A stretch of 38,597 nt of DNA from Cochliopodium minus (Eukaryota > Discosea > Himatismenida > Cochliopodiidae): the NCBI GenBank assembly GCA_024220525.1, contig JAMYWO010000150.1, positions 40,043 to 78,639 of the forward strand, given 5' to 3'. The translations under genes and the position numbers were made by a program. The notes under the pieces are model-generated. The model searched no databases. It was not told where the DNA came from and saw only the letters and a list, made by a program, of their open reading frames with translations. Shown here in pieces: positions 1-38,597 of the stretch (position 1 is its first letter; each line of letters starts with the position of its first letter).

Positions 1-37
1 TTTTTTAAGATCTTCTTCATTTCTATTTATTTTTTAC

Positions 38-239
38 CTTTAAATTGGTTTCCAGAAACACCAATAGGTGAAAAATTGAATGAACTGCCACAGTCAACAT
101 CATTTGTTAAAAAGTATTGTACTGTGGAATTATTAACTAACATCCCTTGAAGATCGGTGCAATTAGTTATTGGGAGCACTTGAGAATAAACTTGACAAAA
201 AAAGAAGAGGAAAAGAATTATTGAATTTAAATTTATCAT
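38..239 (-). CDS. GLUG beta-helix surface protein, first exon (part 1 of 3)
   Basis: First coding exon of a secreted or membrane protein. The start chosen is the ATG at 239; it is followed by a hydrophobic signal peptide (about 20 residues, ending near VYSQ). Then comes the opening of a GLUG-type right-handed beta-helix: a TDLQ...DVDCGSSFNFSPIG...FKG pattern, as at the start of many polymorphic surface proteins. The exon ends in phase 1 at a GTAAAA donor and the gene runs off the left end of the window. Gene order suggests it continues in 4674-5548 and ends in 12989-14454, which together give signal peptide, helix, stalk and membrane anchor. A coding stretch between this exon and 5548 is missing at the joint. 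The function is not known; a cell-surface adhesive role is inference. Confidence 0.7.
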
Positions 240-530
240 TTTCAATAATTTTTTTTATATTTTATTTTATTTTGCTCCACATAAACATTTATTTTAACTG
301 TGGATCTGATGGAAATTGGTAACATTTAAAAGATATTGAAAACAAAGTCTAAAACAATTAATGAAGTTTTAAAAAAAATTATTATTGAAAAAAAAGTTAA
401 TGAAAAAATGGGAATCCTTCAAATATATTCAAATTCTTGTCCCATTAAAGGAAAAAAGATGTTCAAATTTTATTAAAATAAAGGATAAATTAATAAAAAA
501 AAAAGGAATAAACAAACCATAACAAAAATA
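240..530. promoter_or_regulatory. Divergent intergenic region
   Basis: 291 AT-rich bases separate the start of the GLUG gene (minus) from the start of the RBR ligase (plus), so both promoters should lie here. I see runs of A and T but no motif I can name. Confidence 0.4.
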
Positions 531-3227
531 ATGAGCAAAAAAAATGTAAGTATAACCCCAATTTTACCATAATTAACATATTTTATTTCTATTCAAAGAA
601 AAATGAGAGTATAGAAGAGGATGAAAGTGATGAAAATGATAGCGAAGATAATATGGATGAAGATGAAGATGAGAGCGATGATGAGGATGTACCATCAATT
701 GAAGAAGTGAAAGAAAAGAAGGCCAATTTCGTATTGATACCCAAAATTGAAGTCAGAGAATACATGGAGAAGCAATTAAAGAAATTTGAATCGATCACGG
801 GTCTCCCCAAAGAAAAAGTTTACTTGTTATGGACCGTAATCAAGAATCCAACCGAATTTGAGAACAAATATTTTGAGAATATGAACAAATATTTGAAATT
901 AGGTGGTGTATTGCAAGATGAAAAAGAAAAACCCAAAGTAGATCCAAAAAAGAAATTTGGTGAGTTTATAAATGGAAAATGAATTTAACAAATTTATATT
1001 TTTATTTATATATCCGAAGAATGCAAAATCTGTTTTAGTGATACGATTTATGGTGAAACATATTCTGTTGGATGTGGACATGAACATTATTGCAAGGATT
1101 GTTGGAATGGTAAAAAATATATCCAAACCTTGATATTAATATAAAGACCATATTAAACCATATATAATCAAAATATTAAGCTTTTAAATTTAATTATCAA
1201 ATTCGTTCTGTATAATTTTTAATTTATTTTTTTTTGGTGAAATTTGCAAAAATTAAATTTTTAAATCAAAAAAAATTTATATTTTTAACCTTGATTTGAA
1301 TTTTTGAATAGATTACTTGAAAGTGCTCGTCAAATCGGTAAACAAAAAATTTCTTTTTGAATTAAACTTACTCTTCCCAATTAGAGCTCACACGAAATGC
1401 TGAATGCAAAGTGCATGTCAGTAGGATGTAATATAAGATTAACTGCAACAGACTGGAAGAATCTTTTGAAATCTCCCAAAGACAAAGAAAGATACGACTA
1501 CTTTTACTTGAAAGCATTCATAGATGTAACCAACAACTTGTCTTTTTGTCCTTCTCCTAACTGTGGTGTAAGAAAATTAAAGTTTTCAAACTAATTTTAA
1601 TTTTATAAACTTTTTTTTTTTATGTAGAATGTATTGAAATATACCGGTCATTCCAAAACTGACATTTTAAATTGTAAAAAAAATTCTCTCAAAAAAAAAA
1701 ATTTATATTTTTAAATGTTAACATTTGTTTTTTTGATAATAGGTACCTGTGGATCTAAATTTTGTGTTGGATGCTCTAATGAAGCTCACAATCCAATTAC
1801 ATGCAAACAATTTGAAAAATGGGTAATTTTTCCTTTTTCTTTTTTTTTATGAAGAAAAAAAAATTAACCCCTTTTTATTTAAAAGAATGCAAAACTTTTG
1901 GATGAGGGAGCTTCTCTTAAACTTTTACATACCATCGCAAAGTGTTGGTAATTTACTTTCTTTTCCTATTTTTTCAATTTATTAATTTATTTTTTGTAAT
2001 TAGTTTTCATTGTGGAATGCCAACAGAAAGAAATCAAGGATGTAACCAGTAAACAAAAAATTTTAGTTTTATAATATATTTCGATTAAATAATTATCCTT
2101 TGAAAGTATGACATGCAGAAAAGAAGGTTAATCAAATTATTTAACAAATTTTTTTAATCAGTTTTTTTTTTATTTTCTTTATTTAGTCGGAGGATGTGGA
2201 GGAGAATGGTAAAATTCTTTTATTCTTTTTTTTTCATTTAATCAATCTTTTCTTTATTATATCAATAGGTGTTACGTAAAATGAATTTTTAAATTTTTAA
2301 ATTTTTTTAAATATTTTCATCGATTAGGTTTGGTAAAATATTTGTTGGAAAAAATTTTTTAAATTTTTAATTTACATTTTTTAAATAAAGTTGTGGTGAT
2401 TGGAAATCACATGGATCTAATACTGGAGGATATTTCTCTTGTAATGTTTACAAAGGATCTTCAGGAGAGAAAAATGATCAAAAAGCACAAGATTTCAAAA
2501 ATGAGCTCCAAAAATTTCAACATTTTTCCGACAGGTAAAAAAAAATAATTTTTTTAAATTATTTATGAATGAAATTAAAAAATTAATTTTTATTAATTTA
2601 AAAAAAAAAAAAAAAAGATATGATGGACATGAACAATTAAAGAAAGATGCCATTAAAAGAAAAGAAAAAATCTTGGAATTGATGCCATCTTACAGAGAAA
2701 AAACTGGGAAAGAACCTGATATTCGTAACAAATAAAAGAAAATATTTTTGAAATTTTATTTTTAAATTTACTTTTTTTAAAAAAATATTAGTTTTGGAAG
2801 CTATTGAACACTTGATAGAGTGCAGACACATTTTGAAATACACCTACGCTTATGCTTATTTTCTTGAACAACAAGCAGAAAACACTCCAAACAGTACTGC
2901 AAGCAAAAAGAACGATACACCAACAAAAACAAGTAAATTCGTGATATATTCAATATTATTTTTAATTTTTTAATTTTTAATTTTTTAATTTTTTAATTTT
3001 AATTTTTTAATTTTTTAATTTTTTAATTTTATTTTTTAGATAATAACAAAATTGAGCTCTTTAACTTTCAACAAGCTAACGCTGAAGGTATCACCGAAGC
3101 TTTGGGTGGTCTCATCTTCTCCGAATTGCTTGTGCTCATCCAAAAGAGAGACGACATCAGGAGGTATATTGACGTCTCCAAAACATTCTTCAAGAATTTG
3201 ATTCAATCCTTTGAAACTTCCTTTTAA
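531..3227 (+). CDS. Ariadne-type RBR E3 ubiquitin ligase (17 exons)
   Basis: Transfers ubiquitin from an E2 to its own catalytic cysteine and then to substrate. Exons: 531-545, 599-959, 1020-1109, 1312-1337, 1385-1567, 1628-1673, 1743-1822, 1886-1947, 2004-2048, 2107-2126, 2187-2208, 2269-2275, 2328-2332, 2391-2534, 2618-2724, 2792-2932, 3040-3227; they sum to 1542 bases (513 aa) with every phase consistent. Order: acidic N-terminus (DEDEDESDDEDV), RING1 opening CKICF, with C...GHEHYCKDC one residue longer than the usual CGHxFC, then an IBR (CPSPNCG, CTCGSKFCVGC). RING2 follows, with the catalytic cysteine in NQGCNHMTC, and then CYVCCGDWKSHGS, as in ARIH1. The helical C-terminus with YTYAYAYFLEQ and IQKRDD is the Ariadne domain. 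Two exons of 7 and 5 bases encode the CYVC part. The Ariadne class is known to work with neddylated cullin ligases; that role here is inference. Confidence 0.93.
2958..3035. repeat. TTTTTAA short tandem array in an intron
   Basis: Repeated TTTTTAA/TTTTAA units fill the last intron of the RBR gene. Simple-sequence DNA with no coding potential. Confidence 0.8.
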
Positions 3228-3294
3228 AAAAAAATTTTGAAAAATTAAAAATTAAATTGAAATTTTAAAAAAAATAAAAATAAAAATAAAAAAA

Positions 3295-4462
3295 ATGGGT
3301 AATAATCAACCTAGCCAACCTAATCAAGAACAAATGTGGAATCAAGAAAATTCATTAGATGAATTACAGAGGAGAAATAGATATAAATGTGGAGAGAATT
3401 TCGTTACCCAAAAGGATTTGGTGGAGAAATACAGATGGGATATTTATCAGGAAGTATATCCTCCATTGCAACCAAATAAAGAAATTGAAAAAAATGAAGG
3501 TATATAATAACCCAAATAAAATTTATTTATTTTTTTTCCCTCAAATAATAAAACGTACCAAGATGGAAATATACAGGAAGATAAAAATGATGTTGACAAT
3601 TTCCCAAATGAAACGATATCAGAAACCAAAATGGATAATAATGAAGAAAAGAAAGAGAATGGAGATGATAATAAAGAGAAAGAAAAAGATTTATTAAAAG
3701 GAGAAAACGACAAAGAAAAAGAGGAGAAAAAGGAAGAATTTTCCACAAAGAAACAAAAATTAACTCCCCAAGAGAAAAAACTGGAAATTATAAAAGAAGA
3801 ACTCTTAAAACTAGATTTGAAGACAAAGTACGAAGTGGATGAGGAGTTAAACAAAAAAGTAGTTTTGTATAGAGGAGACATTTGTTCTCTAGAAATAGAT
3901 GCCATTGTGAATGCCGCTAAAACTTCTTTAATGGGAGGTTTAAACCTACTACTTTTTTTAAAAAAAAATTAAATATTTCAAATATTTTTTTAAAATTACA
4001 AAAAAGGAGGAGGCATAGATGGTGCAATACATTCAGGTAAAAATTAAAAACAAAAAACAAACTGAATAAATCTTTGATCTTGATCATATTATTAAAATTA
4101 GCCGCTGGGTAAAAAAAAAAATTTAAATTTAAATTTTGTTTTTAATTAATTATTTTTAAAAAAATTATTTTTTTAAAAGTGAAAATTTGAAAAAAGAGTG
4201 CAGTCTTTTAGATGGAACTCCAACTGGAACTGCAAAGATAACTAGAGGATATAATTTACCTTGTAAGTATGTTGTTCATGCAGGTAAATTAAAAAGAGAA
4301 ATTATCACGGGTTAAATTTATCATACCTCTTATTTTGTTTTTTTTTTTCAGTTGGACCCGTTGGAGAAAACTCTGATAAATTAAAAGGTGCTTATTCTAG
4401 TTCATTGGAATTTATCCCAAAAAATAATTTGAAAAGTATTGCTCTTTGTGGAATTTCTACAG
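3295..4462 (+). CDS. Macro-domain ADP-ribose hydrolase-like protein, 3' end missing
   Basis: MacroD-type domain, a family that binds ADP-ribose and removes mono-ADP-ribose from proteins. Exons: 3295-3499, 3581-3937 (an acceptor giving a start at 3563 also keeps the frame), 4007-4036, 4102-4108, 4180-4283, 4352-4462. The first ~160 residues are polar and rich in K, E and N. The macro domain begins at VVLYRGDICSLEIDAIVNAA and goes on with GGGGIDGAIHSAAG, a CSLLDGTPTGTAKITRGY segment and LPCKYVVHAVGP, so the NAA, G-rich loop and HAVGP ribose/phosphate loops are all present. The AAG part is a 7-base exon. The frame stops in an intron that enters a TTTTATTTA array and the N at 4476, so about one third of the domain is not in this piece. 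Confidence 0.88.
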
Positions 4463-4475
4463 GTAAAATAAAAAA

Positions 4476-4476: not shown

Positions 4477-4640
4477 TTTATTTTATTTATTTTATTTATT
4501 TTTATTTATTTTATTTATTTTATTTATTTTATTTATTTTATTTATTTTATTTATTTTAATTTATTTTAATTTATTTTTATTTATTTTATTTATTTTGTTT
4601 ATTTTTATTTATTTTATTTATTTTATTTATTTTATTTAAC
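4477..4640. repeat. TTTTATTTA array
   Basis: About 164 bases of TTTTATTTA and TTTTTATTTA units at the left edge of piece B, nearly the same as the array at 14480-14640. It lies in an intron of the GLUG gene and is a likely cause of assembly breakage. Confidence 0.85.
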
Positions 4641-4673
4641 TTTCTTTTGTAGAAAAAAAAATTTTTTTTTTAC

Positions 4674-5548
4674 AAAAGTTCGGAACCCTATCAGTCCTCC
4701 CACCGTAAAATTGGCTGTCCCAATACGATGGAAAGATGCTCTTGAATAAGAATTGTTGATAAATAAGTTCTCATTGTATGAATAAGCAGTCAAGCCTCCA
4801 AAGTATCTAATAAAATAAATTAATTTGAAAAGTTTACTAAACTTGAAATTAAAAGGAAAACTTACGCGTTAGTACTGTCACTTCCAAGCATTTTGATGGT
4901 AAGTTGTTTAACATAAACTTGGTCAAAAGTGCCTATTTAACAAGAAAATTTTTTGAATATTATTTAAAAAAAAATTTAACTAATGGAATTTACCACTAAA
5001 AATGGCACCGCTGATACCTTTGATCAGAAATAAAAAAAAAAGGGTCATTTTTATTAATTTTCAATGTTTTCTTACCTGCACCTTTTCCTTGGCTACTTAT
5101 CTCTCCATTGATAACACCAGTGTTGCTTATAAGTGTGTTTCCCACACAAACTCCGAATATTCCTCCTATTCAAAGTAATAATTATCTATTATTCATTCAT
5201 TATTCTAACCTACTTACCTATGTTTTGATTTCCACTCGAATTTGTTGTTGCATATATTGTTGTTATATTATTTGCGGTCAATCCAATATTACCTTTATGA
5301 AAATATTGGATATATCAGTTTTAATCTTAATAATTGAATTTATGAATTCTTACTATTTGCAATCAACCATCCTATTGTATTAATTCCTTGTATATGAATT
5401 CCATCAATGATTATATTTGATATTTGGATGCTTGTTCCTATATTCAAGTTTATTAACATTCAGGAATGATATCATTTCAAATTACCACTTGCAACTAATG
5501 TTCCGACATTATTTTTTCCAAATACTGTTATATTTTGAAAATATAAAT
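4674..5548 (-). CDS. GLUG beta-helix surface protein, middle exons (part 2 of 3)
   Basis: Seven minus-strand exons (right to left): about 5548-5486, 5437-5354, 5292-5218, 5165-5076, 5017-4994, 4932-4866, 4806-4674. All junction phases agree. The translation is a string of short beta-helix rungs: NITVFGKNNVGTLVASG, IHIQGINTIGWLIAN, GGIFGVCVGNTLISNTG, then GLUG-type turns YFGGLTAYSYNENLF and FTVGGLIGF separated by INNSYSRASF. The last exon ends in phase 0. The exon that starts at 14454 in piece C begins in phase 0 with DDGYVVQITNSYS, which is the natural next rung, so I infer that these exons precede 14454-12989 in one gene. The upstream end runs into the N at 5549. Extracellular location is inferred from the signal peptide of part 1. 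Confidence 0.75.
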
Positions 5549-5549: not shown

Positions 5550-5640
5550 AAAAATAAAAAATAAAAAATAAAAAATAAAAAATAAAAAATAAAAATAAAA
5601 ATAAAAAATAAAAAATAAAAAATAAAATATAAAATACAAA
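5550..5640. repeat. AAAAAAT array in a ferlin intron
   Basis: A/T heptamer-like repeats at the left edge of piece C. The right edge of piece D (37135-37224) has the same repeat, and the same ferlin intron should span both. Confidence 0.85.
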
Positions 5641-5836
5641 AAATACAAAATAAAATTTTTTTTGAATAAAATAAGAATAAAAAAAAAAAAATAAAAATAA
5701 AATTTTTTTTGAATAAATTAAGAATAAAAAATTATAAAATAAAAATGTTAATAAAAAAATAAAAATATAAAAAAATAAAATAAATTTCAACAAAATAATC
5801 AAAAAAAATTACAAAAAAACAATTTTTTTTATTTAC

Positions 5837-8800
5837 CTTGATTCAATTGGCTTTTTATCCATTGCTTTCCATTCTTCACTGAAGAATCTGTTTTCAAGAT
5901 CAATGACAGTCTCTCCAATCATATCATCAAACCCGATCTTGTCATCCCACACAGAAACAGTGAGTTTGTTGTTGGTAGGCAAAACGATATTGAACTCGAA
6001 AGATCTGTAGAACTTTGGTCTCAATGTTTCTTTCTTGGAAACATTTTCTCCATCTTCTATGTTCAATTTTTCTCCCTTTCCACAAGACAATCTTTTTATA
6101 AAATTAAATTTTTTAATTTTTTTTTTTTGAATTTTATTTTAACAAAGATTTTTGATTTTTTTTTAAATTATTTTAAATTTTTAATTTTTTTGAATTTTAT
6201 TATTAAAAATATTTTAATTTTTTTAAAATTAAAACTTTAATATTTTTTATTTTTTATTTTTTTTGAATTTTCATTTTATCATTTTAATCATTTTACCTCA
6301 AGTATGGTTTACAAAGTCCATTTTTGGAGTTCGCTACGAGTTGTTCTCCTTCGAGTACATAGACTCTCAAAATCAAGTTTTGTTCTTTTGCAAGAGATTT
6401 CACGTCTGTCAAGGTAACAGGTTTTTCTTCAGATCCCCAAATTGCAATGTTTGCTAAAAAAAAGAAAATTTTTAAAATTGTTTCAAATAAAAAAATAAAA
6501 ATAAAGAAAATAATGTAGAAAATAAAAATAAATAACAATTATTAATTAAAAAAAATATTGAAAAGGAAAGTTTAATATAATAAAAAATAAAAATTTTTTA
6601 AAGATAATATTTTTCTAAAAAAATTTTTACAAAATAAAAATAATTAAAAATTTTTATTTGCAAAAAATATATTTTTTTACCCTTCAAAACACCAACAATA
6701 TTGCTATTGTTAGTTCCTCTTTTCAAATTGAATTCCAAGAAAGGAGGCTTTTCAAAATCTCTTTCCAACTCATGAGCAATGATTTTTCTTTTGAATCTCC
6801 CCATTCCCACAACGTCTTCTTCTATCTCTCCTTTCACTTCGAGTTGAGTGTCTTCTACTTCTTTGATGGTTCTTCCTTCAGTAGGAACTTTGATTTCTAT
6901 TAATTGAAGTTCGATTTGTTCTCCTCCTTCATTTTTCTTGTTTTCCTCCTTTATTAAAGATAATATTTTGTTTTTAAAATTATTTTAATTTTTTATTTTA
7001 AAAAATCATTTTTATTTTCTATTTTCTATTTTTATTTTTATTTTTATTTTTATTTTTATTTTTATTTTTATTTTTATTTTTATTTTTATTTTTATTATTT
7101 TTTTTTATTGTTTATTTTTAGATTAATTTGTTTTTTGAATAATTTTATTACTTGAATGATTCTCTCGATTTCCATTTCGTTTTTCTTGCTGAGTTCATTG
7201 TTTTCTTCAATTTTTGTTTGGACAGGTGGCTCTTCTTCGAGAGGGATTTCATTAACATCCATTTTCACAATTTTGTCAAGACCAGAAAGGATCATACCAC
7301 TTTAAAAAAAAATTAAAATTAAATAATTGTTTATTTCATAAAATAATAACAATTGACAATATTTTTTAATAAAAAAATAAAGAATAATAAAAAAAAATAG
7401 AAATAAATTGAATAACAATAATAAAGAAAATTTTTTTTTTTTTATAATAAAGAAAATTTTTTACCTCCCAGGAATTTCATCAATAACTTTTATATCAGCA
7501 TTGATAACTTCAGCTTGCAAAATTTCTTTTGCTTCTTCTTTGTTTGCCCAAGTGACATAAGGAAACAGACTGATCGTGGAAAAAATAAGTTGGATCAATT
7601 AAAAACTTTGTTTGAACCAAAAGAAAATATTTAAAAAGAAAAATTACCTTGTTGATCTAGTAGCAACAAGAGGAGATCCTATCAAAAAAAAATAATGAAA
7701 TTAAAAAATAATAAATTAAAAAAATAAAAAAAAAAATAAATTAAAATAAAAAAAAAAATTTAGTAAAATAAAAAAATTAATTAAATAAAAAACTTTATAA
7801 AAAAAAACTATTTTGTTTAAAATAAATTAATTAATTTAAATAAATAAATAAATAAAATAAATTTTTAAAAAGAATTTTTTTTTAAACCTAATAATCTTTT
7901 GTCAAATACTCTGAAATTAATAGGAGGAACGAACAATAGGTCTTGGGGTATTTGGATGTCCATTTCAAAATGCTCCAAATAATTTGGAGAATGACCAGAT
8001 GGCTCCTTGGTGTTTTTGGTTTCGAGTTTCTTGTTCAAATCACCCACGTCAAACTCCACCTTTGAGTTTCCAATTTTCAAGAAATGATATGGTTTTAACT
8101 CTCTTGCACTTAATTTTTTTTTTGTATAAAAAAATTTAAAAATTATAAAAATTTAAATAATTAAAAAAAATAATTAAAATATTTCCAATCAAAAAAAAAT
8201 ATTTTTTTTTACCCAACGAGATTGATTGCTAATTTGCAGTTTTTCATTTGAGGAGTGATGTTTGGGATAGGAATGTTCTTAGATTCGGCCATACCAATGA
8301 TTTGGAAGGAAGCCAATATGAATCCTTCTTGCTTTCCGTTCTTCATGTTGAGAGGATACCATTCTATAGAATTACAAAGTTAAAAATAAATATGTCATTT
8401 TTTTTTTTTGAAAAATAAACCTGGTTTTTCTGGAATTTTTTCTGTGACTGTAGAAATAGATTTTTTGAATCTGCCCAAATCTTCATCATCTCCAATGTTA
8501 TCATAGTCAAAAACCTTTATTTAAATAAGAAAAAAAAAATTAATAAATTAAACAAAAATTAAAATAAATTATGAACAATAATTTAATAAAATTAAAATTA
8601 ATAAATTAATAAATTATTTATTTAAAAAAGAGATTATTTATATCAAAAATAATATTAAAAATTAGTAAAATGGATTTACATCGCAAATAATTTGGGGAGC
8701 AAGATCTTTGTTGTCAGGTATTTCAACTTCCAAGCAAATAACTTGGTACCAACAAGGATAAGTGGTCTCCTTGATAGTTTTGGTTTTGTTGTGAGCCTTT

Positions 8801-11533
8801 CCGCATCTCAAAACGAGATAAGGATCACTCGATCCACTTTTATCTCCTGATGCGAGCTCTTTGCCTTGGTAGATGAATGCTCTAAGCTGGAATTTTTTCA
8901 TGTTTGGCAATGCAATGTTGTTACGTGGAATGGAAGATACTTGTGATGCTTCACCAATACTAATTTAAATATAAAAAATGAACAATAAATAAATCTAAAA
9001 TAAAAATTGAAAATAATAAAAATTATAAAAATAAAAACAAAATAAAATTTACTAAAAAATTTAAAGTTATTGAAAACAAATAATTAGATTTTACCTTATT
9101 CTGTAAAGCAAAAAACCTGCGAAAGGATTTTTTTCTTCCTTGATGTTAAACACGTCAGGTTTAACTGTGTCCCACTTTGGAAATGCTTCTTTGTCATTTT
9201 TGATGTCAGAGATCTAAAAATAAAATATTCAAAATACAAAAATAAAAAAATAAAACAAAAAAATAAAAATAAGTAAAAATAAGTAAGATGAAAAAAATAA
9301 TTTTTTAAAATAATTTTGAATTTACTTTTAAGCAGATGTATCCAATTCTTGTTTTTCCACTCAACAATTTGGTTTTGTAAACATTAATAAACAAAAGAGG
9401 TTGAGAAACAGGATTAACAGGCAAATCAATGGTCCAGTCTTTGAAAGCGTTGTACATCTTGCAGTATCCGTCTGCTACTTTGAAGTTATCAGAATGGACT
9501 TCCAAATTGGCGACGGAGAGTTCAATGAGGATGTCTGATGAAGTGATGAGCTCTGTCGCTTCGAAAGCGTCGAATCTGATTGTATATTTACCGTATTTTG
9601 GTTCTTCTTTGAGCTCTTGCAAGGTTTTTTTTAACATCTAAAATTAAAATATAAAAATAAAAAAATAAAAATATTTTAGAAAAATTTCAAAATTTCAAAA
9701 TAAAGATATTATTAAATTTTTTTAAAAAATAAAAACAGAAAAAAAATAAAAATAAAAAACTTGTTACTTTTGGTTGGTGAACTCTTTCGGTGGTCACTCC
9801 TACCAAGACTGATCCTTTGTAGGAGGTACCTTGAATAGCACCAGAGTTCATCAAAGGTGCATACTTGGAAGTACTGTTTGAATCAGGAGCGCCATAAAGA
9901 GGATACCAAGTTCTTATATAAAATAAATTAAATTAAAAAAATTGAAAAATAAAATATAATTTTTTATTTTAATTTATTACGGAGTGACTGGCTTTTCCAT
10001 GATTTCTTTAAGAGAAAAAAATAACGTGGAAATCAAGTCATCTTTTCCAACGTCATCATCATATACTTGGACTCTAATCACATCACTCATAATTGGAGAA
10101 ACGAAAGGAACACAAAGTTCTGTGAAAGAAAAATGAAAATATGAAAAAAATGTAAAAAAAATAAAAAATAAAAAAAAAATATGAATAATTTTTTTACCTT
10201 CATTCCTATTTTTTCAATATAAATTTGAAGATTAATTTTTTATTTTAAAATATGTTCATTTTACCAAGACGGGTTGAAATCATTTTTTATGGTTTTGGTA
10301 GACAACCTCTCGTTGGCAGCAAACTTCGTTGAAACTTTACCATCACATTTTCCGATGGTATCTGTTTTTGGGAGTTGTTTTGCTTTGTAAACAGCCACTT
10401 TCAAGAAATACTAAAAGCAAAAAGTGTAAAATTTTAAAAAATAAATAAATAAATAAAATAAAAAGAAACAAAATAAAATTAAAAAATAAAAGTTAAAAAT
10501 TATTTTACTTCTTCTATGTTAATGTTGGGAGATGTCAAAACAATTGCTCCTTCAATATCTTCATCTCCTTCTTCATCTTCTGAGTGAGCAGCTGCCTCAT
10601 CTCCAGGTCTTTGATAAATAAATATTTTCAAAAAGTTAAAATAAATAGAAAATAAAAAAAAAATAATATTACCCTAATACAATGATGGACAATTTAACGT
10701 ATCCTTGAACTCCTTCGTTCTTATCTTTTTATTTTTTTTATTTTTTTTAATATTTTCGTTGAATATATATCTTATTTGTGAATTATACCTGTTGTATCTG
10801 TCAATGCTACCCATTTCCTATATATTTCATGATTCTTTTCCTTATAAATAGTACTCACATCGAATTCAAATGACCCAATAAGTACATTTCTGAAGATGGT
10901 ATTTGCATCAAATACTATAGATAATGATTTGTTTATTTATTAAAGAATTGTTTCGATATATTGATTTTATAGGCTCCGAGATTATTTTTTATTTTTACCT
11001 TGAATTATAATTTTTTCGTTAACAAATTCTTCTTTGAGCATTTTGTTCTTGAAGATGAACATTCTATCCCTTTAAAAAATGAATATATAGTTCATAAATT
11101 GTGAAACTGAAATCCATTCATAAAAAAAAGAATTTTTTTTTTTACCATGTGCATACTGTTGTATTTTTATGTCTATCAAAGGAGAATAAATAAAAAAATG
11201 AGAAATATAAAATAAATATGTCTACATATCAGTATGTTGTTTATTTCCAAATGCATTGACGAAACAGATTGGATCTAATTATTCAAATTCAAAATTTATC
11301 AAAATTTTTTTTTTTTGTGCAAATCGAACTTACCAGACCTGCGAAAGTTATTAGGAAGAATTGATTTTTGACTATCTTATGAAATACTTACATTCCATTC
11401 ATATCTCTCCCTTTGAGATCTCTCCCTTCTATTATATGAACTCTTTTATCATATTTTTATTTAACAAGTTATTATATTGGATTTGAAATATGAAATAGTG
11501 TTACCTTATTTGGAAATCTTGTTTGTTTATCAT
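5837..11533 (-). CDS. Ferlin, exons 1-26 (5' part; continues at 37075-35578)
   Basis: Multi-C2 protein of the ferlin family, which binds membranes and calcium and acts in vesicle fusion and membrane repair. 26 exons run from an ATG at 11533 to 5837 and sum to 3071 bases. With the 8 exons at 37075-35578 the total is 3801 bases, 1266 aa, shorter than animal ferlins (1700-2100). C2 domains by residue: about 4-131 (DFQIRVHIIEGRDLKG, SDPICFVNAFG), 165-290 (YFLKVAVYKAKQLPKTD), 470-580 (FQLRAFIYQGKELASGDKSG, SDPYLVLRCG), 590-715 (GARELKPYHFLK, FPPINFRVFDKRLLG-like end), and 915-1020 (LILRVYVLEGEQL, IGETVIDLENRFFS). The last of these has CKPY where SDPY is usual. Exons of 5 (11334-11338) and 8 bases (10198-10205) occur. 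The last codon in C is split (IES|AG) and is completed in phase at 37075. The start is uncertain: an upstream ATG exon would be out of frame. Confidence 0.92.
7019..7095. repeat. TTTTTA array in a ferlin intron
   Basis: About 13 TTTTTA units within the intron between the exons at 7152-7299 and 6681-6948. Simple sequence only. Confidence 0.8.
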
Positions 11534-11872
11534 TTTGATCTATGAAATATAATTTGCAATTTTGATTTTATTTATAATTTAAATATCTTAAATAAATAAA
11601 AAAAAAACAAAAAAGGATTTTCAGTTCCCTTTGAAATACTCACTTTTTAAACTTAGTTTGACTAAGATTTTAAAATTGGCTCTTTTTTCCATTGACATAT
11701 CAACATGTATTAATTATTAATCAATAAAGAAACAAATAAAATAATGAAAAAATGAGAAGTAATTTAAAAGAGTTTGTCACATATAACATTAAATAGTTTA
11801 AAAATCAACGATTTTCCTTGACAATAAAATAAAAAAAAAAATATTGAAAGAAATTTTGAGATAATTCATATA
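11534..11872. promoter_or_regulatory. Divergent region between ferlin and Ras-like gene
   Basis: 339 bases between two divergent genes. A short minus-strand frame with ATG (11698-11644) ends at a GTGAGT donor, so it may be a 5' non-coding exon or an upstream ORF of the ferlin gene. Spliced to the next exon it does not keep the ferlin frame. Nothing else recognised. Confidence 0.35.
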
Positions 11873-12655
11873 ATGTGCGATAGAGTACTCAATGATAATT
11901 TTTGCTTCAAAATAATCCATTTGGGTAATGAATATAACTTCAATTCCTCAAATAATACAATATTTCTTAAAGGAAATAAATCAGTTGGAAGAACATCGCT
12001 GATAGAAAGATTCGAAAACAATCAATTTGAAGCAGAAATCAAAAATGTAAAATTATTTGTTCTTTGAAATGAAATTTTTTTGATTATTCAAAAGAAATCA
12101 CATTTCAGATCGAAAAAAATTAAATCTCTTGGAAAGATGGTCACACTTGGAATTTGGGATTATGTAAAACACAAAATTTTTTTTTTTTTTTGAATTCTTG
12201 TCGATTATAAATTAATTTATTTTAAAAAGCATTCTTGTAAAGAAATTTCAATTTAATTTCAAAAAAAAAGAAAATTTAAATGGAAATGTAAATAAATATG
12301 ACAGCTCCAATTTATATGAAAAACTCACATGGAGTGGTGATTCTTTATGATGTCACAAACAGAAAAAGCTTTGAAGATAATAGACAATGGTTAAAAGAAA
12401 CAAAAAAATTCATTGATGCTAAATGTATATTAGTTGGTACCAAAATAGATCTAGAAAGTAAAAGAGTTGTTTCATATGAAGAAGGATATAAATTTGCAAG
12501 TACATTTGGTTTTTACTTTTTTTTTTTTTTAATTTCTCAAAATAAAAAAAACTTTCCTCGTAGGATTATTATTCATTGAAACAAGCTCAAAATTTTCAAT
12601 CAATGTGGAAGAATTATACTTTATTGACTTTTTTTATGATGGGGATAGAATTTGA
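11873..12655 (+). pseudogene. Degenerate Ras/Rab-like GTPase
   Basis: Small GTPase remnant. Pieces: 11873-12050 or so (P-loop region), 12109-12163 (VTLGIWDY), about 12298-12508, 12564-12655. The P-loop reads GNKSVGRTS, with arginine in place of the invariant lysine. The DxxGQ switch II segment that should follow IWD cannot be found between 12164 and 12297. The base-contact motif is GTKID rather than NKxD, while GVVILYDVTN, RQWLKE and ETSSKFSINVEE are clear family landmarks. The junction into 12109 is one base out of phase. After 12655 a different frame stays open to 12881 with no homology I recognise (starts EFEKINQICAIPCF). Either it is a decayed gene or a GTP-independent relative with unusual exons; loss of the lysine and of G3 makes normal GTPase action unlikely. 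Confidence 0.6.
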
Positions 12656-12988
12656 GAAAATAAACCAGATTTGTGCAATTCCTTGTTTTGATTTTGTCTC
12701 GAAAAATTCTTCAAAGTTTCCTATGACTATAAAAGAAGAAATATTAAGCTTTGTTGTTTGTTTAAAAATCAAAAAATTGGAAACTCCTCCAAAATATATT
12801 TTGTTCAAAATTCTAAAAGAAAGTATTTTGACATATCAAAGCTTTATTTCAACTTTTAAATATGAAGAAGATAAGATATAGGAAAAATGGACATCACAAT
12901 AGAAAATCAAATTCTAATAATTTTTGCTTGATTTATTAAACAATTCTTTAAAAACTCCTTTTTTTGTTTCTTTTTCACTTTATTTAAT

Positions 12989-14454: not shown

Positions 14455-14479
14455 CTTATTTATTTTAATTTTTTTGAGT

Positions 14480-14640
14480 TTATTTTGTGGTTAATTTTTA
14501 TTTATTTTTATTTATTTTATTTATTTTTATTTATTTTATTTATTTTATTTATTTTATTTATTTTATTTATTTTATTTATCATATTTATTTTATTTATTTT
14601 ATTTATCAAATTTATTTTATTTATCAAATTTATTTATATT
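14480..14640. repeat. TTTTATTTA array with CAAATTTATTTTATTTAT units
   Basis: Matches the array at 4477-4640. Its right third contains a CAAATTTATTTTATTTAT unit that recurs at 36285-36330. It sits between a GLUG exon that needs upstream exons on its right and an ankyrin frame that may need downstream exons on its left. Confidence 0.8.
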
Positions 14641-23923: not shown

Positions 23924-23954
<31 letters not shown>

Positions 23955-29514: not shown

Positions 29515-29626
29515 TTATTAAAAGCTTGTATTTTAGATCTTGTCAACCAGCCATTTCTTCTTCTCAAAAATCCATTCTTCTCAAAAAAAAATAAAAAAAA
29601 ATCAAAAAAAAAATATTAAAATTTAT

Positions 29627-29697
29627 GTTCGCAACCGGATTTGAACCAGTGACCGGACGATCTGCAGTCATCCGCTCTGCCGCTGAGCTATACGAAC
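29627..29697 (-). tRNA. trnC-GCA: tRNA-Cys (GCA)
   Basis: 71-base cloverleaf without intron. The 7-bp acceptor stem (GTTCGTA with TGCGAAC, one G-T), a D stem GCTC/GAGC, and the anticodon stem GATGA/TCGTC around loop CTGCAGA give anticodon GCA. The T arm is ACTGG TTCAAAT CCGGT. The B box GGTTCAAATCC is intact, and a T-run follows on the transcribed strand as a polymerase III stop. CCA is not encoded. Confidence 0.97.
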
Positions 29698-29932
29698 TTT
29701 TTTTTTGGAATATTAGTAAAAATTTAATTATATAACCATTATTTCAATAAAATTTTTATTTTTTTTTAAAAGAATTTAATTATGATATGTTGAAGAGGTT
29801 TTGGTAATTTGAAAAGAGAAAAGTTTTTGTGATAATTTAAAGACAACAAAAAGATAAAAACTTTCTTTTTAAAGTCTGTATGAAAAAATTTGTTATTAAT
29901 TGTTGACCATTCCTAACATAAAAAACAAAAAT

Positions 29933-31475
29933 TTATTTAAGAAAAATACTTTTAAAAGTAGATCTTGATTTTACAAATAAACTGTGATTTTGGATTAACT
30001 TCAAATCTTTAAACTCTAATTCTCTAGGACAGAATACGTTTTCTATATCTCCAACACCAAGTTGTCCAAAATAACCTCTGCCACATACAAAGTTTTTGTA
30101 TTTATTACAAAATATTGAATGATTTAAACCATTTGTAATATAAGATACATCTGATAATCCATTAGTGGTAAAAAGAGTAAGATATGCTTCATTCATTATT
30201 CCTAGTTGTCCTCTTATATTCGTTCCGCATCCAAAAACTTTTCCTTCTTCTTTAAAAAAATTTTGTGTAAAAAAAAAAAATTTTAATAAAAATAATTTTT
30301 AGATTTGTTTTTGACTTGTCAAAATCAGACTGTGGTCTCCGCAGTGGACTGAAGAAATGTTGGGAAAAGAATTGTTCGAACACAATTCAAATCTATTCAC
30401 TTTATCTCCCAACCCTAATTGTCCACTACTATTTTTACCAAAACTTTTCAATACAGTGTTTCCTTTCTCATCACCTTTAATAAATTTTTTTTTTTTTTTT
30501 TTTTTACACATCAAAAAATTGGTTTACTTGTTAAAATGAAGGAGTGCATCCATCCACAACATATTGAGATGATATTTTTGTCTGTTACAAGTAATTTTGG
30601 TTCGCTAGTCATGCTTAATAATTTGTTAAATCCACATTGACCTAATGTATTATTTCCCATCGACCACACTTCTCCACTCTCTTTCGAAAAAAAAATTTAA
30701 AAAATAAAAAATTAATTATTCAATCAAAAAAATTAATAAAAAATCAAAAAAATTTTCAATACTTTTAAGGAATAAGCAATGTTCCCTTCCACAAGAAATA
30801 TTAACAACATTTTCTATTTTTATTTCTTCATAGCAGTAATTTGAACTTTGAAAATTCCCACACATTATAACTTTACCGTCACCTTTTTCGAAAAATAAAA
30901 TAAAAAATCAAAAAAATCAAATAAATAAAATAAAAAAATAAATTACTTTTTAGGAATAAAGAAAAGTCAATGGATGCAGATATTTGAAATACGTTTGAAC
31001 CAATATATTTGAATTTATTTAAATTTTGAAAGGTATTATTTCCTAATTGCCCTTTTTCATTGAATCCTAATGGAAGAAAATTTTTTATAAAGTTTGTTTA
31101 GGAAGATTTCTTTTTTTACCACAACCATAGCAATCCCCATTTTCTTTTTAATTTAATTTTCAAAAAAAAAAAAAATATAAAAATATATATATTGAAATTA
31201 TCTTCTATTACTTTCCAAATAAAAAGAATGCAGATTTCCCAAAACAAATGATTTGATGTTTGGATTGTTCATTACAAAAGTGGGAACTTTTATTGCTTTT
31301 AGATTATTCCCTATTCCACACTGTCCGTAATAATTGGACCCAAATGAATAAACATCACCCTTTTCTTCAAATATTGGTAAACAATTTAAATATAGTGTAA
31401 ATATTTTTGTAAATAATATTTACCATTCATAAAAATATTATGTGATGAAAAACATGAACTTGAATTTGGATTCAT
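29933..31475 (-). CDS. RCC1-repeat beta-propeller protein
   Basis: Exons 31475-31424, 31364-31212, 31143-31120, 31066-30947, 30882-30763, 30680-30528, 30474-30316, 30249-29933 sum to 1098 bases, 365 aa, the size of a single seven-bladed propeller. RCC1 repeats are plain in every large exon: GDVYSFGSNYYGQCGIG, NGDCYGCGFNEKGQLG, SGEVWSMGNNTLGQCG, SFGKNSSGQLGLGD, KVFGCGTNIRGQLG, FVCGRGYFGQLGVGD, each followed by a G-D-H-S or G-x-x-H strand (VHCGDHSLIL, CGWMHSFIL). Several exons cover one blade each, with phase-1 borders. Such proteins act as guanine-exchange factors or scaffolds; nothing here shows which. No nuclear signal, FYVE or kinase part is attached. Confidence 0.92.
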
Positions 31476-31595
31476 CCTATAAATAATTCTCAAGATTTAT
31501 ATTGATGAATAATCAACAAATTTTTTTTTAATTAATTTATATATTTTAATAATCTCTTAAAAAAGTATTTTAAATGGTTCAATCTTTGGAGAGTT

Positions 31596-33546
31596 TCACT
31601 GATAAACACTACATTTTCCGAAAGGTTCGCAAATTAAATAAGAGTTGTCATTGTAGATGATTGGAACATAGTCAGGGTTTTCAAGTGGAACTGTCCATTC
31701 CAAAACTTTCAAAAAAAAATAAAAAAAATAAAATAAATTAAAAATAAAATAAATTAAAAATTAAAAATTAAAAATTAAAAATTAAAAATTAAAAATAAAT
31801 AAATTAAAAAAATAATTATTTACTTCCGCTGTTAATGTTGTAAGAAGATAAATTGTATGAAGATACAATAAGACTGTCATTTGCAATAAAGCCGTGGGAA
31901 GTAACAAAGTTGGTTACATTCCAGTTAAGAACTCCGGTGGAAGGATGAAAGGAGCTAATTCCACATGGTCCAGATGACAAAGAAACAACCAAGTTTTCTT
32001 TGTTGCCTCCCAACAAGAAAATTCCTATTAGTCCTTTAAAAAATATTTTCCACACTTCTTCATTATGATAAGTATCATGAGCAATGAGATAGGCTACAAA
32101 ATTTTTTTATTTTTTTTGTAAATTTTTTTTTGTAAATTTGTTTCATTTTTTAAAATTATTTTTTATTTGTTTCATTTTTTATTTGTTTCATTTTTTAAAA
32201 TAATTTTTTTTATTTTTTATTTTTTATGGTTTATTTTTTTTATTTTTAATTTGTTAATTTTATTTTTATTTTTATTTTTATTTTTTATTTATTTTTTATT
32301 TTTTATTTTTTATTTTTTTTAAAATAATTTTTACATCCATTGAATGGATTCTCGCATGTCAAGAAATAGACAATGGAATCTATCATGATGACTTTGTCGA
32401 CTGTTGAAATGGTGCTGCTGATTGAATTGTTACTCAAAAAACTTCCGTTCAATGCATCAAAAATAAATAAAGAGGTGCTAAAAAAAAATGAAAATAAATA
32501 AATAAAAATAAAAATAAAATAAAAAGAATGAAATTATTTCAAATAATAAACTCATTTCCAAAATTTAAACGGTAAAATTATTGAAAATTGTTTTTTTTGC
32601 CTGTAAAATTGATAATCTCTTACAACCAAAAATATTTTGGTTGAATCTTCGTTAAGGAGGGGGTTGTTGAACTTGTAGTAGCGAAGTGAGTTGTCCAAGG
32701 TGTAGTTCCACATTTGTGATGCATTATTTCCGTTGAAGCAGTACTGTGTGAAGGAAGTTTCAGTGTATCCGTAAAAATAGATATTTTTATTGAATCCGAC
32801 CAAAATATCAGAGAAATGATAAAAATCTCTTGAAGATATGATTTCTATAAAGAATAAAAAAATTAATTTAAAAAAATAATTTTAAAATAATCTTTAAAAT
32901 CAATTTAAAAAATCTTTAAAACCTTGTTTCAAGTATAAATTGTACTTTGTTGTGTCGTACATGTTTAAGCTGAAAACAAATCCTTTTTCCGGAGTGATTT
33001 GTTGAGTGATGGTGTAGAGATATCTTGTTGTTACTGCCATTGATTGGATTGATTCTCCCGATGTCAGATTGATGAATGATTTCACTTGATATAATTAAAT
33101 AAAAGGAAATTTAATTTAAGAAATTACTAGTGTTGATTGAATATTGAAAGGAATGATTTCAACATAATCCAATAATAAATTATTTCCAACTTCAAAATAT
33201 AATAAAATAAATGGATGAAACAGTTTGATTCCAAAATGTTTGTTATATTTTATAGAATATAGGATCTGTGAATTTATAAGATCTTACAATTAAATTTTTG
33301 ATCCAATATTTCGAAATAATTGTTTGTAGGTGAAGCCATATATAAGATAAAATCTCCATTATTCCCAACCAATGATTTACCAACGTTTGTTGAAGTATTG
33401 AATACGATGGAGGGAGTTTTATCAGAAAGATATGGAGCATTTCTGGAATTTTGAGAATCAAATCCTTTCATCGTCCAACCAATATTTTGGAAATTGTACG
33501 AAAGGAAAAGAAGGAAAAAATGAAGGAATATCAGCTTCAAATTCAT
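31596..33546 (-). CDS. Secreted PQQ-like beta-propeller protein, copy 1
   Basis: Exons 33546-33288, 33084-32923, 32844-32601, 32477-32335, 32093-31824, 31705-31596 give 1188 bases, 395 aa. A signal peptide (LIFLHFFLLFLSYNF) leads into IGWTMKGFDSQNSRNAPYLS, the W..G....N.p opening of quinoprotein-dehydrogenase-like propellers, followed by repeated strands (FILYMASPTNNYFEIL, RYLYTITQQITPEKG, SGPCGISSFHPSTGVLNW). No enzyme cofactor residues are apparent, so a structural or binding role outside the cell or in a vacuole is most likely. The protein is ~80% identical by eye to the next gene to the right, same strand, with the same six-exon structure. The intron after exon 3 begins GC here (32600) but GT in the copy. 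Confidence 0.85.
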
Positions 33547-33609
33547 TCTATTTTGGTTTCAATTTTATTTTTATTTTATTTTCACTGAAATTTTTTTTAT
33601 TTTTTGTAA

Positions 33610-35275
33610 TCACTGATAAATACTGCATTTTCTAAAAGGTTCGCAAATTAAATAAGAGTTGTCATTGTAGATGATTGGAACATAGTCAGGGTTTTCAAGT
33701 GGGACTGTCCATTTCAAATCTTTCAAAATAAAATAAAAAAAATAAAATGAAATAAAAAATAAATAAATTAAAAAATAAAAAATAATTATTTACTTCCGCT
33801 GTTAATGTTGTAAGAAGATAAATTGAATGAAGAAACTATTAGACTGTCATTAGAGATAAATCCTTTGGAAGATATGACATTAGTGATGTTCCAGTTAATG
33901 ATTCCAGTGGAAGGTTGAATGGAACTGATCATACAAGGAGGTCCAGATTGAATGGAAACAATCAGATTGTTTCTATTAGCTGCCAATAAGAAAACACCGA
34001 TCCATTCATCAAAGAAAATTTTCCATAATTCTTGGTTATGATAAGTATCATGTGCAATAACATAAGCTATTTAAAATTTAAAATTATTTTAATTTTTTTA
34101 ATTTTTTTTGTTATTTTTACAAATTTTTTTTTAAATAATTTTTACATCCATTCCATTGGTTTTGACAAGCTACAAAATAAATGATGGAATCTATCATTAT
34201 TACTCTATCTACAGTGGAAATGGTGCTGCTGATAGAACTGTGACTCAAAAAACTTCCATTCACTGCATCAAAAATAAATAAAGAGGTGCTAAATAAAGAT
34301 GAAAATAAAATAAAAAAGGAATCATTTAATTCTTTTAAAATTCTTTTTACCTGTAAGTTTGATAATCTCTAATAACCAAAAATAATTTAGTTGAATCTTC
34401 GTTAAGGAGTAGATTATTAAACTTAAAGTATTGGTTGGAGTTGTCCATTGAGTATTTCCAAATGAGGGATGTGTTATTTCCGTTGAAGCAGTATTGAACA
34501 AATAATTTTTCGTTGCACAAATAAAAATATAAATTGTTATTGGGTCCAATCAAAATATCAGAGAAATGATAAAATTCTTTGGGAGAAGTTAAGATTTCTT
34601 TTCAAAAGATAAAATTAATAATCTTTAAAATCAATTTAAAAAAATCTTTTAAACCTTGTTTCAAGTATAAATTGTACTTTGTTGTGTCGTACATGTTTAA
34701 GCTGAAAACAAATCCTTTTTCTGGAGTGATTTTTTGGGTGATGGTGTAGAGATATCTTTGAGTAGCTGCCATTGATTGGATTGATTCTCCCGATGTCAGA
34801 TTTATAAATGATTTCGCTGAATAATTTAAAATTAAAGAATTAAATAAAAAATAATCAAAGGAAATCAAGGGAAGTTAATATTAAAATCAATGATCTTACA
34901 ATTAAATTATTTCATCTTCAAAATATAATAAAATAAAAGGATGAAACAGTTTGATTCTAAAATGTTTGTTATATTTTATAGAATATAGGATCTGTGAATT
35001 TATAAGATCTTACAATTAAATTTTTGATCCAATATTTCGAAATAATTGTTTGTAGGTGAAGCCATATATAAGATAAAATCTCCATTATTCCCAACCAATG
35101 ATTGAACAACGTTTGTTGAAGTATTGAAAACGATGGAGGGAGTTTTATCCGAAAGATATGGAGCATTCTTGGTATGTTGAGGATCAAATCCTTTCATCGT
35201 CCAACCAATATTTTGGAAATTGTACGAAAGGAAAAGAAGGAGGATGATATAAATTGTGATCCTGAAGCTTTTCAT
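33610..35275 (-). CDS. Secreted PQQ-like beta-propeller protein, copy 2
   Basis: Exons 35275-35014, 34816-34655, 34597-34351, 34288-34146, 34066-33794, 33719-33610 give 1197 bases, 398 aa. Signal peptide ITIYIILLLFLSYNF, then IGWTMKGFDPQHTKNAPYLS and the same series of propeller strands as copy 1, ending DNSYLICEPFRKCSIYQ. Exon borders and phases match copy 1 throughout. Intron 1 is also conserved between the copies for about 70 bases before the shared donor, so the duplication or a later conversion event is recent. The gap between the two genes is only 63 bases. Function unknown; secretion is inferred from the signal peptide and the many NxS/T sites. Confidence 0.87.
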
Positions 35276-35577: not shown

Positions 35578-37075
35578 TTAAAAAATTTTGCATCCATCAC
35601 AGCAACAACAGCATTTTGCACAACAAACTATCGAAAAAAAAAAGAAATTAAATCATTAAAAAAAAAAAAATTAAAAAGAAGAATAGTCGTAGTACCATTG
35701 GTGAGCATTTTGTCAACTCTGAAAGGATTAAAACTTGTTTTAGGTCTATTAGGGAGATCCAAAGGATTAGGAGGAGATCTAAAAAAAAAAAAGTTTTAAA
35801 AATCAAAAAATAAAAAATAAAAAATAAAAAATTGATCGAAATAATTAATTAATTTATCAAAAAAAATTATTTAAAAATTAATTTTATTTACCTCCCAATA
35901 CCAACAGGATTCAAGTTTGCTTCACTCTCTGTCAAAATAGTGAGTTCAAATTGAAGTTTACCTTGAGGACCTTCATAATTAGGGTGGTACTAATATTAAA
36001 AAAAAAAAAATGTAAATATTAAAAAATGTATTTAAAAAATTAAAAAATTGACAAATTAAAATTAATAAAATTTGAATTATTTCTTTTTTTTTTACCATGC
36101 TGACAAATTGCTTTTCGAGGTCGGTTTTGGATTCTTGTCCAAGAACAAACTTTTTGTAGGCTTGGTCACACAATTTTTTCAAATTAAAATTGGCTTCACA
36201 AATAGCGTCATTGGGAGCAATGACATCTTTGTCCCACATTTGGACTGAAAAATAAAACATTAATTTATTTTATTTATTTTATTTATCAAATTTATTTTAT
36301 TTATCAAATTTATTTTATTTATCAAATTTATTTTATTTATTTTTATTTTTATTTTTATTTTTATTTTTATTTATATTTTTATTTTTATTTTTATTTTTTA
36401 TAATACCTTTGAGTCTTGGGTGGGCAGTTGGAAGAGTCATTCTGAAAACCATTCTCCAATTGAACAAAGCTTTTCCATCTTCACATCTTTTAATTTTAAC
36501 AAATTTCAAACAAATTTTCAAAAAAAAATAATTAAATAAAATCAAAAAAACCGAAATAAATAAGCAATTAAATTTTTGAAAAATAAATCAAGAAATAAAT
36601 ATTCTAATAAATTACCTCCAATGAATATCTGTCTTTTGGGGTTTGGAAACTCCCTCTATGTAGGCAGAAATAAAAACATCCGACATTTTGTTGGAAATCA
36701 AATTTTTTTCTGATTTTGTAAAATAAAAATATATAATTTAAAAAACGAATAAAAATAATTAAAAAATAATAAAAAAAATGATTTTTCAAATAAAATAAAT
36801 TAATTTTTTTTTTTTTACCATCTCTAAATGCAACATCTTTGGTGTCCCAAATAATCAAACGAACTGATATTTTTTTTTGATTTATTAAAAAAGATGAATA
36901 AAAAAATGAATAAATTAATTTAAAATTAATTAATTTGATTTTACCTTCAAAGACTTGGGGAGGAGGAGGGAGGATGTTGACGAGAGGGTTTTGTTGTGCT
37001 TGTTCTTGAGTCAAGATGTCCACCCACATGGTGAGTTTACCTTGTGGATTAGATGAACTAGGGTTCCAAAGGGTT
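35578..37075 (-). CDS. Ferlin, exons 27-34 (3' part; continues from 5837)
   Basis: Eight exons: 37075-36945, 36863-36819, 36709-36616, 36486-36407, 36244-36096, 35989-35892, 35778-35696, 35627-35578. The first opens RTLWNPSSSNPQGKLTMWVD once its split codon is joined to the PIES end at 5837, just as in other ferlins. Then come the proline patch ILPPPPQVFE and the last C2 domain (VRLIIWDTKDVAFRD, MSDVFISAYIEG, DIHWRCEDGKALFNWR, VQMWDKDVIAPND). The ferlin C-terminal NPLDLPNRPKTSFNPF box follows. Instead of the usual single transmembrane helix after that box, the last exon ends NVCCAKCCCCCDGCKIF: eight cysteines in 15 residues, a likely S-acylation anchor. There is no hydrophobic segment. As a separate gene it would have no start. 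Confidence 0.92.
36255..36397. repeat. TTTTATTTAT / CAAATTTATTTTATTTAT array in a ferlin intron
   Basis: Simple T-rich repeat with three to four 18-base CAAATTTATTTTATTTAT units at 36285-36330, shared with 14605-14640, then TTTTTA units. Confidence 0.8.
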
Positions 37076-37134
37076 CTAAAAATTATTTAATTAAAAAAAA
37101 TTACCAAATATAAAAATAAAAAATAAAAAAAAAA

Positions 37135-37224
37135 ATAAAAATAAAATGAAAATAAAATAAAAAATAAAAAATAAAAAATAAAAAATAAAAAATAAAAAAT
37201 AAAAAATAAAAAATAAAAAATAAA
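37135..37224. repeat. AAAAAAT array at the right edge of piece D
   Basis: Tandem AAAAAAT units in the ferlin intron upstream of exon 27. The left edge of piece C (5550-5640) has the same array, as expected if the two edges flank one unassembled repeat. Confidence 0.85.
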
Positions 37225-37225
37225 N
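37225..37225. other. Single-N assembly joint D/E
   Basis: One N between the ferlin intron (minus) and an open LCAT-like exon (plus). Both genes are cut here. Confidence 0.8.
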
Positions 37226-38597
37226 ATCTCAATTTCCCAGAAACTGTCTTTTGGCAGCTCTGACCATTGATGAAAACTTTAATCCTCCAAAAGGAGTATC
37301 TTTTTTGTTACCAAACAACACAAGTCCTATTTCAGTGTTGGGTAAACAAAAATTTTTAAAAAATAAATAAATTTTAACATCTTATTGACTTCGTTATTCA
37401 GGACCAATGCTTCCTTCTGTTGCAACTTTTTTCTTGAAAGCAGAATCAAAGGGTTATCAATACGGAAAAGATCTCTTCATTTTACCTTACATTTGGCCTG
37501 TTGCACTTCACCTTCAAAACTATACTCAAAACTTTAAATCAACAATTGAGATGTTGAGTAAAAATAACGGAAATGAAAAAGTGGTTATTGTTGGAAATAG
37601 TGAAGGAACTTTGGCAATTAATTTTGGTATTTATTTTTTTATTAGAGATATTTTTTGATTGAAATTGGATAAATATATTGATAATTTTAATTTATTTTGA
37701 AGGGATGCAAAAGTTGGGAGATCATTGGAGGTAAAATTGATATTTATTTTACTTTGAATTTTTTTTATTATTATTTTTAATCCCAATAAATGTTTAGTGA
37801 ACAATATGTTGGGAAAGTAAAAATAAATTGAAATTAAAATTTAATTATTATAACTTGTGAAAAAGATTTTTTTAACAGCAAATTGCGCAAGTGGAGGGCA
37901 ATCTTCAGGCATGGTTTTCACTGTTACTCCTCAAGACTATTGCACCATTGGGGAACCATTAGTAGCAAGATCGAGTATTTGGTACAACGTGACAAAATAT
38001 TGGACTGGAAATTGGCAATTTTTACCTTGTAAAATTAATTAAAAAAAATTAAAGAAAATTTAAAAATAATTAAAAATAAAAAAAAAATTTTGCTTTATTT
38101 CTAGATCCAACTGTTTATGGAGATACACCTCTGGTAATTACACCAAAAAGAAATTACACCTCACAAGATTGGAAACAATTTATAATTGACTCAAACAACA
38201 ACGAAACTTACTCTAATTTAAAAATATCCGCTATTCAAAATTTCTTTGACAATTACAATTTCTCCATTGGTCCTCCTTCAAGTGTGGAAGTTTATGGATT
38301 GATAGGAGAACAAAGTAAAAATTTATAAAAAACTTCATTTTTATTTTTCAAATAAAAAACAACAATAATCAAAAAATATTTAAAAATTTAAAAATAAAAA
38401 ATTATTTAATAATTAAAAATAAAAAATTTGACATTTTAGTAAAAACTTCTTTTGCTGGTATCTATTCAACTTCTGACGCTTCTGACGTAATCTTTGCTAA
38501 AAAAATAATTAAAAAAAAATTTTTTTGACATTTATTTGTAGGCTCCTATCATGACCCAAGAAAGTGGAGATGGTGACGAAGATTTGAAGGGTGCCCT
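37226..38597 (+). CDS. LCAT/PLA2G15-like lipase, main part (continues at 15359-15500)
   Basis: Alpha/beta-hydrolase of the lecithin:cholesterol acyltransferase / lysosomal phospholipase A2 group. Exons: 37226-37341 (opens in mid-gene), 37402-37626, 37703-37730, 37798-37816, 37866-38028, 38105-38314, 38440-38486, 38542-38597; with the last exon completed at 15359-15500 the phases close. Landmarks: NCLLAALTIDENFNPPKGV, SKGYQYGKDLFILPYIWPV, the nucleophile elbow VVIVGNSEGTLAINF (serine present, but GHSxG changed to GNSEG), ARSSIWYNVTKYWTGNW, ITPKRNYTSQDWKQFI, VYGLIGEQ and ESGDGDEDLKGAL, which carries the acid residue. The catalytic histidine region at the very end shows no histidine. N-terminal exons with the signal peptide are missing to the left. 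The piece ends inside an exon at the window edge. Confidence 0.9.

Follow-up and report, generated by a model that had tools for sequence, protein, structure and literature searches.

Evidence that contigs joined by single Ns are listed in reverse order in a scaffold of the Cochliopodium minus genome assembly

In the scrambled genes of ciliates, gene parts lie out of order and short repeats stand at their borders. Overlapping sequence ends are also met at the level of genome assembly. Passages of the Meraculous paper describe negative gaps, in which overlapping contig ends are left unmerged, the overlap being "too short or repetitive" (PMC3158087), and unmerged overlaps between scaffold neighbours are likewise described in PMC5368935. 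Here, we analysed a stretch of 38,597 nucleotides (the window) from Cochliopodium minus, positions 40043-78639 of scaffold C150 (JAMYWO010000150.1), in an assembly of 44,654,751 bases and 598 scaffolds. Several genes of this window, among them a lipase, a ferlin and a macro-domain gene, are cut at single Ns, and their parts are printed in an order in which they cannot be read.

The N positions of C150 (103,588 bases) bore out the original prediction, made from the window alone, that four single Ns (at 4476, 5549, 15358 and 37225) divide the window into five pieces, A to E (Table 1). Almost certainly, the contigs joined by single Ns are listed in reverse, with each contig in its right orientation; the pieces should read E-D-C-B-A and then p2, which is printed left of A outside the window. 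The order of the five pieces with their orientations kept had been predicted as well; E-D, D-C and B-A each have their own evidence, while C-B is compatible with it and needs a chimeric C. The broken genes are the result of an error of assembly order and not of biology. Breakpoints were located at N joins at all four joins of the window and at C150:36020, C400:26022 and C598:2378.

Overlapping ends and the genes at joins E-D and A-p2

Exact end-to-start matches were compared over all 72 ordered pairs that the nine pieces of C150 can form. Matches of at least 15 bases were found for E-D (21 bases), A-p2 (77), D-C (44), p2-C (46) and p8-C (45). Opposite-strand matches, end to end or start to start, were 5 bases at most, and neighbours as printed had 0 or 1 base in common at their ends. 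The last 21 bases of piece E, of complex sequence, are identical to the first 21 of D; this word occurs exactly twice in the window, and the chance of such a match over all 72 pairs is about 1.4e-9. The A-p2 overlap is also exact and of complex sequence. The D-C, p2-C and p8-C matches, on the other hand, are one A/T minisatellite, and none of the three carries weight; the D-C match is of low complexity, and the ends of p2 and p8 match C too. Blast searches with the 400-base ends returned the E-D and A-p2 links again; apart from these, three short matches of 80-86% identity were obtained. The run of 11890 Ns presumably begins at a true contig end, because the end of piece E that borders it matches the start of D exactly.

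A lipase exon had been predicted to link E to D, and this held. The frame in piece E remains open over the 21 overlapping bases and, within D, ends in a stop at 15500. The joined lipase matched LCAT with an E-value of 2.6e-5, the matched stretch lying inside piece E only, and the stretch that crosses the join aligned with group XV phospholipase A2 (E-value 0.00041 for the whole protein and 0.055 for the stretch alone). The homology is weak but collinear, and the overlap is the main evidence for E-D.

The macro-domain gene has its first exons in A and its last exon and stop in p2 (C150:36021-38615). The joined A+p2 protein covered positions 1-115 of 118 of the Macro profile (E-value 4.6e-33), while a genome-wide Macro search showed only the fragment 24-61 on C150. 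The single rearrangement had been proposed to explain every gene cut at an N except this one; the rearrangement stands, and the exception is not needed, since p2 outside the window completes the gene. The macro-domain gene is therefore a further case for the reversal. That the chain of pieces continues outside the window, and that other scaffolds share the fault, goes beyond the original prediction.

The short exact repeats that flank E-D and A-p2 seem to resemble the pointers of scrambled genes, and the printed order might be real, the genes being expressed from a genome scrambled as in ciliates or by trans-splicing. We regard this as hardly conceivable. An N or an N run is present at every break seen, no break lies inside continuous sequenced DNA, and several are in minisatellites or in a dispersed repeat, which is typical of assembly breaks, although E-D and A-p2 lie in exons. 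Moreover, the paralogues of the ferlin are contiguous, and the kinesin and myosin matches listed genome-wide are in order.

Genes across joins D-C, B-A and C-B

For D-C, the evidence comes from the ferlin gene, whose product has several C2 domains collinear with dysferlin, myoferlin and otoferlin. In the alignment with dysferlin (9b8k), the C part reaches residue 1673, and the D part begins at 1770. Of 80 database matches, three ferlins of 1276-1281 residues covered the spliced protein over its whole length, and the best match was 40% identical. The join was then aligned with the best 6 of these 80 matches, 2 of which are labelled Anaeramoeba, the other 4 having no species label. There was no gap at the join in any of the six, and identity was 59-63% over 78 columns around the join compared with 37-40% over the preceding part. 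A 34-exon ferlin crossing from C to D in matching codon phase had been predicted; splicing and relatives confirmed the crossing, but our model has 33 exons and is imperfect. At its end is a cysteine-rich stretch in which no clear membrane anchor is seen, the last exon probably being mis-modelled, and the model contains six extra residues near window position 36820 compared with the six relatives.

A genome-wide search with the ferlin join region matched C150 at two places 30 kb apart and in the wrong order. When full separate copies were looked for with this region, two paralogues were found, on C78 and C301; they represent different genes (37-55% identity), each with its two halves contiguous within about 1 kb. 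In each paralogue one match spans the join residue, without a stop in C301 and with one TAG inside in C78. With two paralogues of the ferlin and an assembly that has gaps, it could be argued that the printed order is right and that the matching halves belong to other, unassembled gene copies. Such an explanation is very improbable. The start of piece E was found in a single copy only, the halves fit together in the sole open phase and, for genes with relatives to compare, leave neither gap nor repeat, and unassembled copies would be needed separately for five genes (the lipase, ferlin, macro-domain, RUVBL2 and secreted protein genes).

A minus-strand gene for a secreted or membrane protein runs from A through B to C, with a signal-like leader in A and a hydrophobic anchor in C, both recognized by eye. 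When A and B were abutted, a 61-base intron of phase 1 resulted, and joining B to C cut at 14600 gave a 343-base minisatellite intron of phase 0. The original prediction had a GLUG protein spanning these three pieces. One open frame was indeed obtained, with only the agreeing phase open at both joins, but the Pfam scan gave no family at E<=0.01 in the 333-residue A+B+C part, the rest of the C part not being scanned.

The C part of this gene fits only when the tail of C beyond the minisatellite is set aside. The tail contains an ankyrin exon (Ank_2, E-value 5.7e-8), whose frame ends in a stop, and two dispersed repeats, in one of which C ends; copies 86-98% identical to these repeats were present on other scaffolds among the 40 candidates scored out of 457. 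The simplest reading is that C probably has a chimeric join at the minisatellite, which had not been part of the original prediction. C-B is the weakest join and appears compatible with the reversal.

The exon models were obtained with a home-made gene finder that forces phase agreement, and they were used only where homology, overlaps or a phase test agreed. In the phase test, the two sides of a join were read separately, with exon borders still chosen by the model. For A/B, the phase left over by the upstream exons was 1 and the downstream stops in phases 0, 1 and 2 were 12, 0 and 13; for B/C, with C cut, the left-over was 0 (stops 0, 29 and 23), and for the ferlin it was 2 (stops 23, 8 and 0). 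At the joins of scaffolds C400 and C598 the left-overs were 1 (stops 5, 0 and 11) and 2 (stops 4, 15 and 0). The agreeing phase was the sole stop-free phase at 5/5 joins. The test is support and not proof, because the exon borders come from the model. One exon model contains a 20-base intron. An all-pairs junction scan with the same gene finder was also carried out, and its scores were not used: an identical exon set scored differently alone and joined.

Other scaffolds and the extent of the reversal

Besides C150, scaffolds C400, C598, C500, C450, C420 and C360 were inspected whole and C1 over its first 10 kb. C500, C450 and C360 contain no N, and C420 is a single piece after 3949 leading Ns. 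Only C400 and C598 were testable in addition to C150, because the other whole scaffolds do not have multiple pieces. Both C420 (1-3949) and C150 (1-4731) start with long N runs, and such a start is unusual in a deposited assembly.

In C400, the true order puts piece 2 before piece 1. As printed, piece 1 opens with a TIP49 domain (profile 1-342), and piece 2 closes with the C-terminal part. In the order 2-1, a 463-residue protein was obtained, of which residues 9-460 align with RuvB-like 2 (5oaf_B, 12-462; E-value 2.9e-203). This RUVBL2 is full-length, with TIP49 and TIP49_C domains and no gap at the join. The neighbours at the printed join are a part of a formin FH3 domain (E-value 9.1e-13) and a weak MOSC-like part (E-value 0.0066, below the Pfam cut-off). 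In C598, the frame is open across the join in the order 2-1, without a confirming domain. C400 is strong evidence for the same reversal and C598, which supports it less, is weak evidence.

All three testable multi-piece scaffolds (C150, C400 and C598) thus fit the reversal. We lean towards a systematic fault, in which most single-N contigs of the 44.65 Mb, 598-scaffold assembly stand back to front within their scaffolds. It is also possible, if rather doubtful, that the mis-ordering is limited to C150 and a few other scaffolds. The few scaffolds that could be tested, the weakness of C598 and the 100-N join on C150, which seems correctly ordered, would agree with a limited fault, and so would the kinesin and myosin motor matches listed genome-wide: these run in order, and no gene among them has its halves reversed on one scaffold. 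However, errors made at random should produce a mixture of orders and orientations, and none of the three scaffolds requires a piece to be turned round. Three myosin motors, on C79, C84 and C496, are incomplete among the matches listed (profile 384-593, 2-315 and 22-277 of 679); they say nothing on the reversal, because no missing part was listed on the same scaffold.

The first 200 bases of C1 were also searched; a dispersed repeat was found there and no end overlap. The repeat (C1:1-105) is about 105 bases long and has inverted matches within it (40 out of 222 candidates scored). On the same scaffold, two neighbouring Ras-like exons (5614-5762 and 6697-6846) are 77% alike. A single N at 6847 breaks off the second exon before its end; a minisatellite follows, and a search for the partner of the cut exon at C1:6846 did not find one.

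Several observations weigh against a simple reversal, or against its generality. Just three multi-piece scaffolds were testable, and in C598 the gene finder also built a three-exon model over the printed join. The phase-test exon borders were chosen by a model that forces agreement. At D-C, the end overlap is of low complexity, and the ferlin intron at the join would be 436 bases if the pieces abut, the longest in the model; at C-B, a chimeric tail of C is required. Despite their 77-base overlap, A and p2 are printed with 1427 Ns between them. p8 is interrupted within a ribose-5-phosphate isomerase gene, piece E within the lipase gene, and no pairing of the two was found. Moreover, the 100-N join p0-p1 appears correct as printed (a kinesin motor lies in p0, and similar coding is seen by eye on both sides), and a plain reversal of the whole scaffold therefore fails at p2-p1. 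Neither the long N runs nor this one 100-N join can be accommodated by a plain full reversal. For the runs of 4731, 1427 and 11890 Ns, a shifted-gap model was tried that assigns each printed run to the piece on the opposite side; it was rejected, since it accounts for A-p2 but for neither p8-E nor B-A.

The most likely cause of the reversed listing would be a software step that inverts the contig list but leaves every contig in its own orientation. Each single N may stand for an overlap left unmerged. Such a list would have been reversed at one scaffolding step, with the other joins and the gap sizes probably added at another.

Layout, consequences and comparison with known systems

The coordinates of the pieces, joins and gene parts are collected in Table 1. 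Two further features lie in piece D. Two tandem paralogous genes were modelled on the minus strand at 29616-35275 (35275-33610 and 33546-29616); the second has an extra C-terminal part, which we take to resemble RCC1 repeats. On the plus strand, at 21614-22771, a protein is encoded with about eight similar GDWKC.CG..NFA.R..C..C zinc-finger units, presumably of RanBP2 type, separated by N- and S-rich linkers.

Table 1. Pieces, joins and gene parts in the window and in the flanking parts of C150 (window positions unless C150 is given)
Feature	Position	Strand	Remarks
Piece A	1-4475	+	True order B, A, p2; 77-base overlap with p2, macro-domain gene, 61-base intron with B
Single N	4476		False join A-B
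Piece B	4477-5548	+	Begins within TTTATTTTA minisatellite
Single N	5549		False join B-C
Piece C	5550-15357	+	Follows D in true order; basis, ferlin gene
Single N	15358		False join C-D
Piece D	15359-37224	+	Follows E in true order; basis, 21-base overlap and lipase gene
Single N	37225		False join D-E
Piece E	37226-38597	+	Leads the five pieces in true order
Overlap, end of A with start of p2	4399-4475	+	77 bases, inside macro-domain gene
Overlap, end of E	38577-38597	+	21 bases, repeats 15359-15379
Lipase (LCAT / group XV phospholipase A2 like), E part	37227-38597	+	
Lipase, last exon part and stop	15359-15500	+	21 bases at its start identical to the end of E
Ferlin, N-terminal part	5837-11533	-	Piece C; 25 exons (model)
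Ferlin, C-terminal part	35578-37075	-	Piece D; 8 exons (model)
Macro-domain gene, A part	3301-4462	+	Model; final exon in p2
Secreted/membrane gene, first exon	38-239	-	Piece A
Secreted/membrane gene, middle exons	4674-5524	-	Piece B
Secreted/membrane gene, C-terminal exons	13039-14454	-	Piece C
Tail of C, probably chimeric	14650-15357		Ankyrin exon followed by two dispersed repeats, 15134-15266 and 15260-15357
N run	C150:1-4731		Left of window
p0	C150:4732-21875		Left of window; followed by 100-N gap
p1	C150:21976-36019		Left of window; followed by single N
p2	C150:36021-38615		Left of window; followed by 1427 Ns
11890 Ns			Right of window
p8	C150:90530-103588		Right of window, after the 11890 Ns

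Those who annotate or compare this genome would meet falsely split genes (ferlin, lipase, macro-domain and RUVBL2) and false neighbours. If the reversal is systematic, statements on local gene order across such joins would be wrong, and the assembly would be mended, and many genes repaired, by a single scripted re-ordering. The same fault could be sought in other assemblies with single-N joins, where the end of the next piece would match the start of the preceding one. Among the titles listed in literature searches, none was on reversed scaffold order.

Like the scrambled genes of ciliates, C150 has gene parts out of order and short repeats at their borders. However, the borders on C150 are assembly ends marked by Ns, the order is a plain reversal, and the ferlin paralogues and the listed motor genes are contiguous. 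The likeness to the negative gaps described in passages of the Meraculous paper (PMC3158087) is that contig ends overlap and are yet unmerged. In contrast to these gaps, the overlapping neighbours on C150 stand on the wrong sides of each other, the list running backwards while the orientation of each contig is kept.

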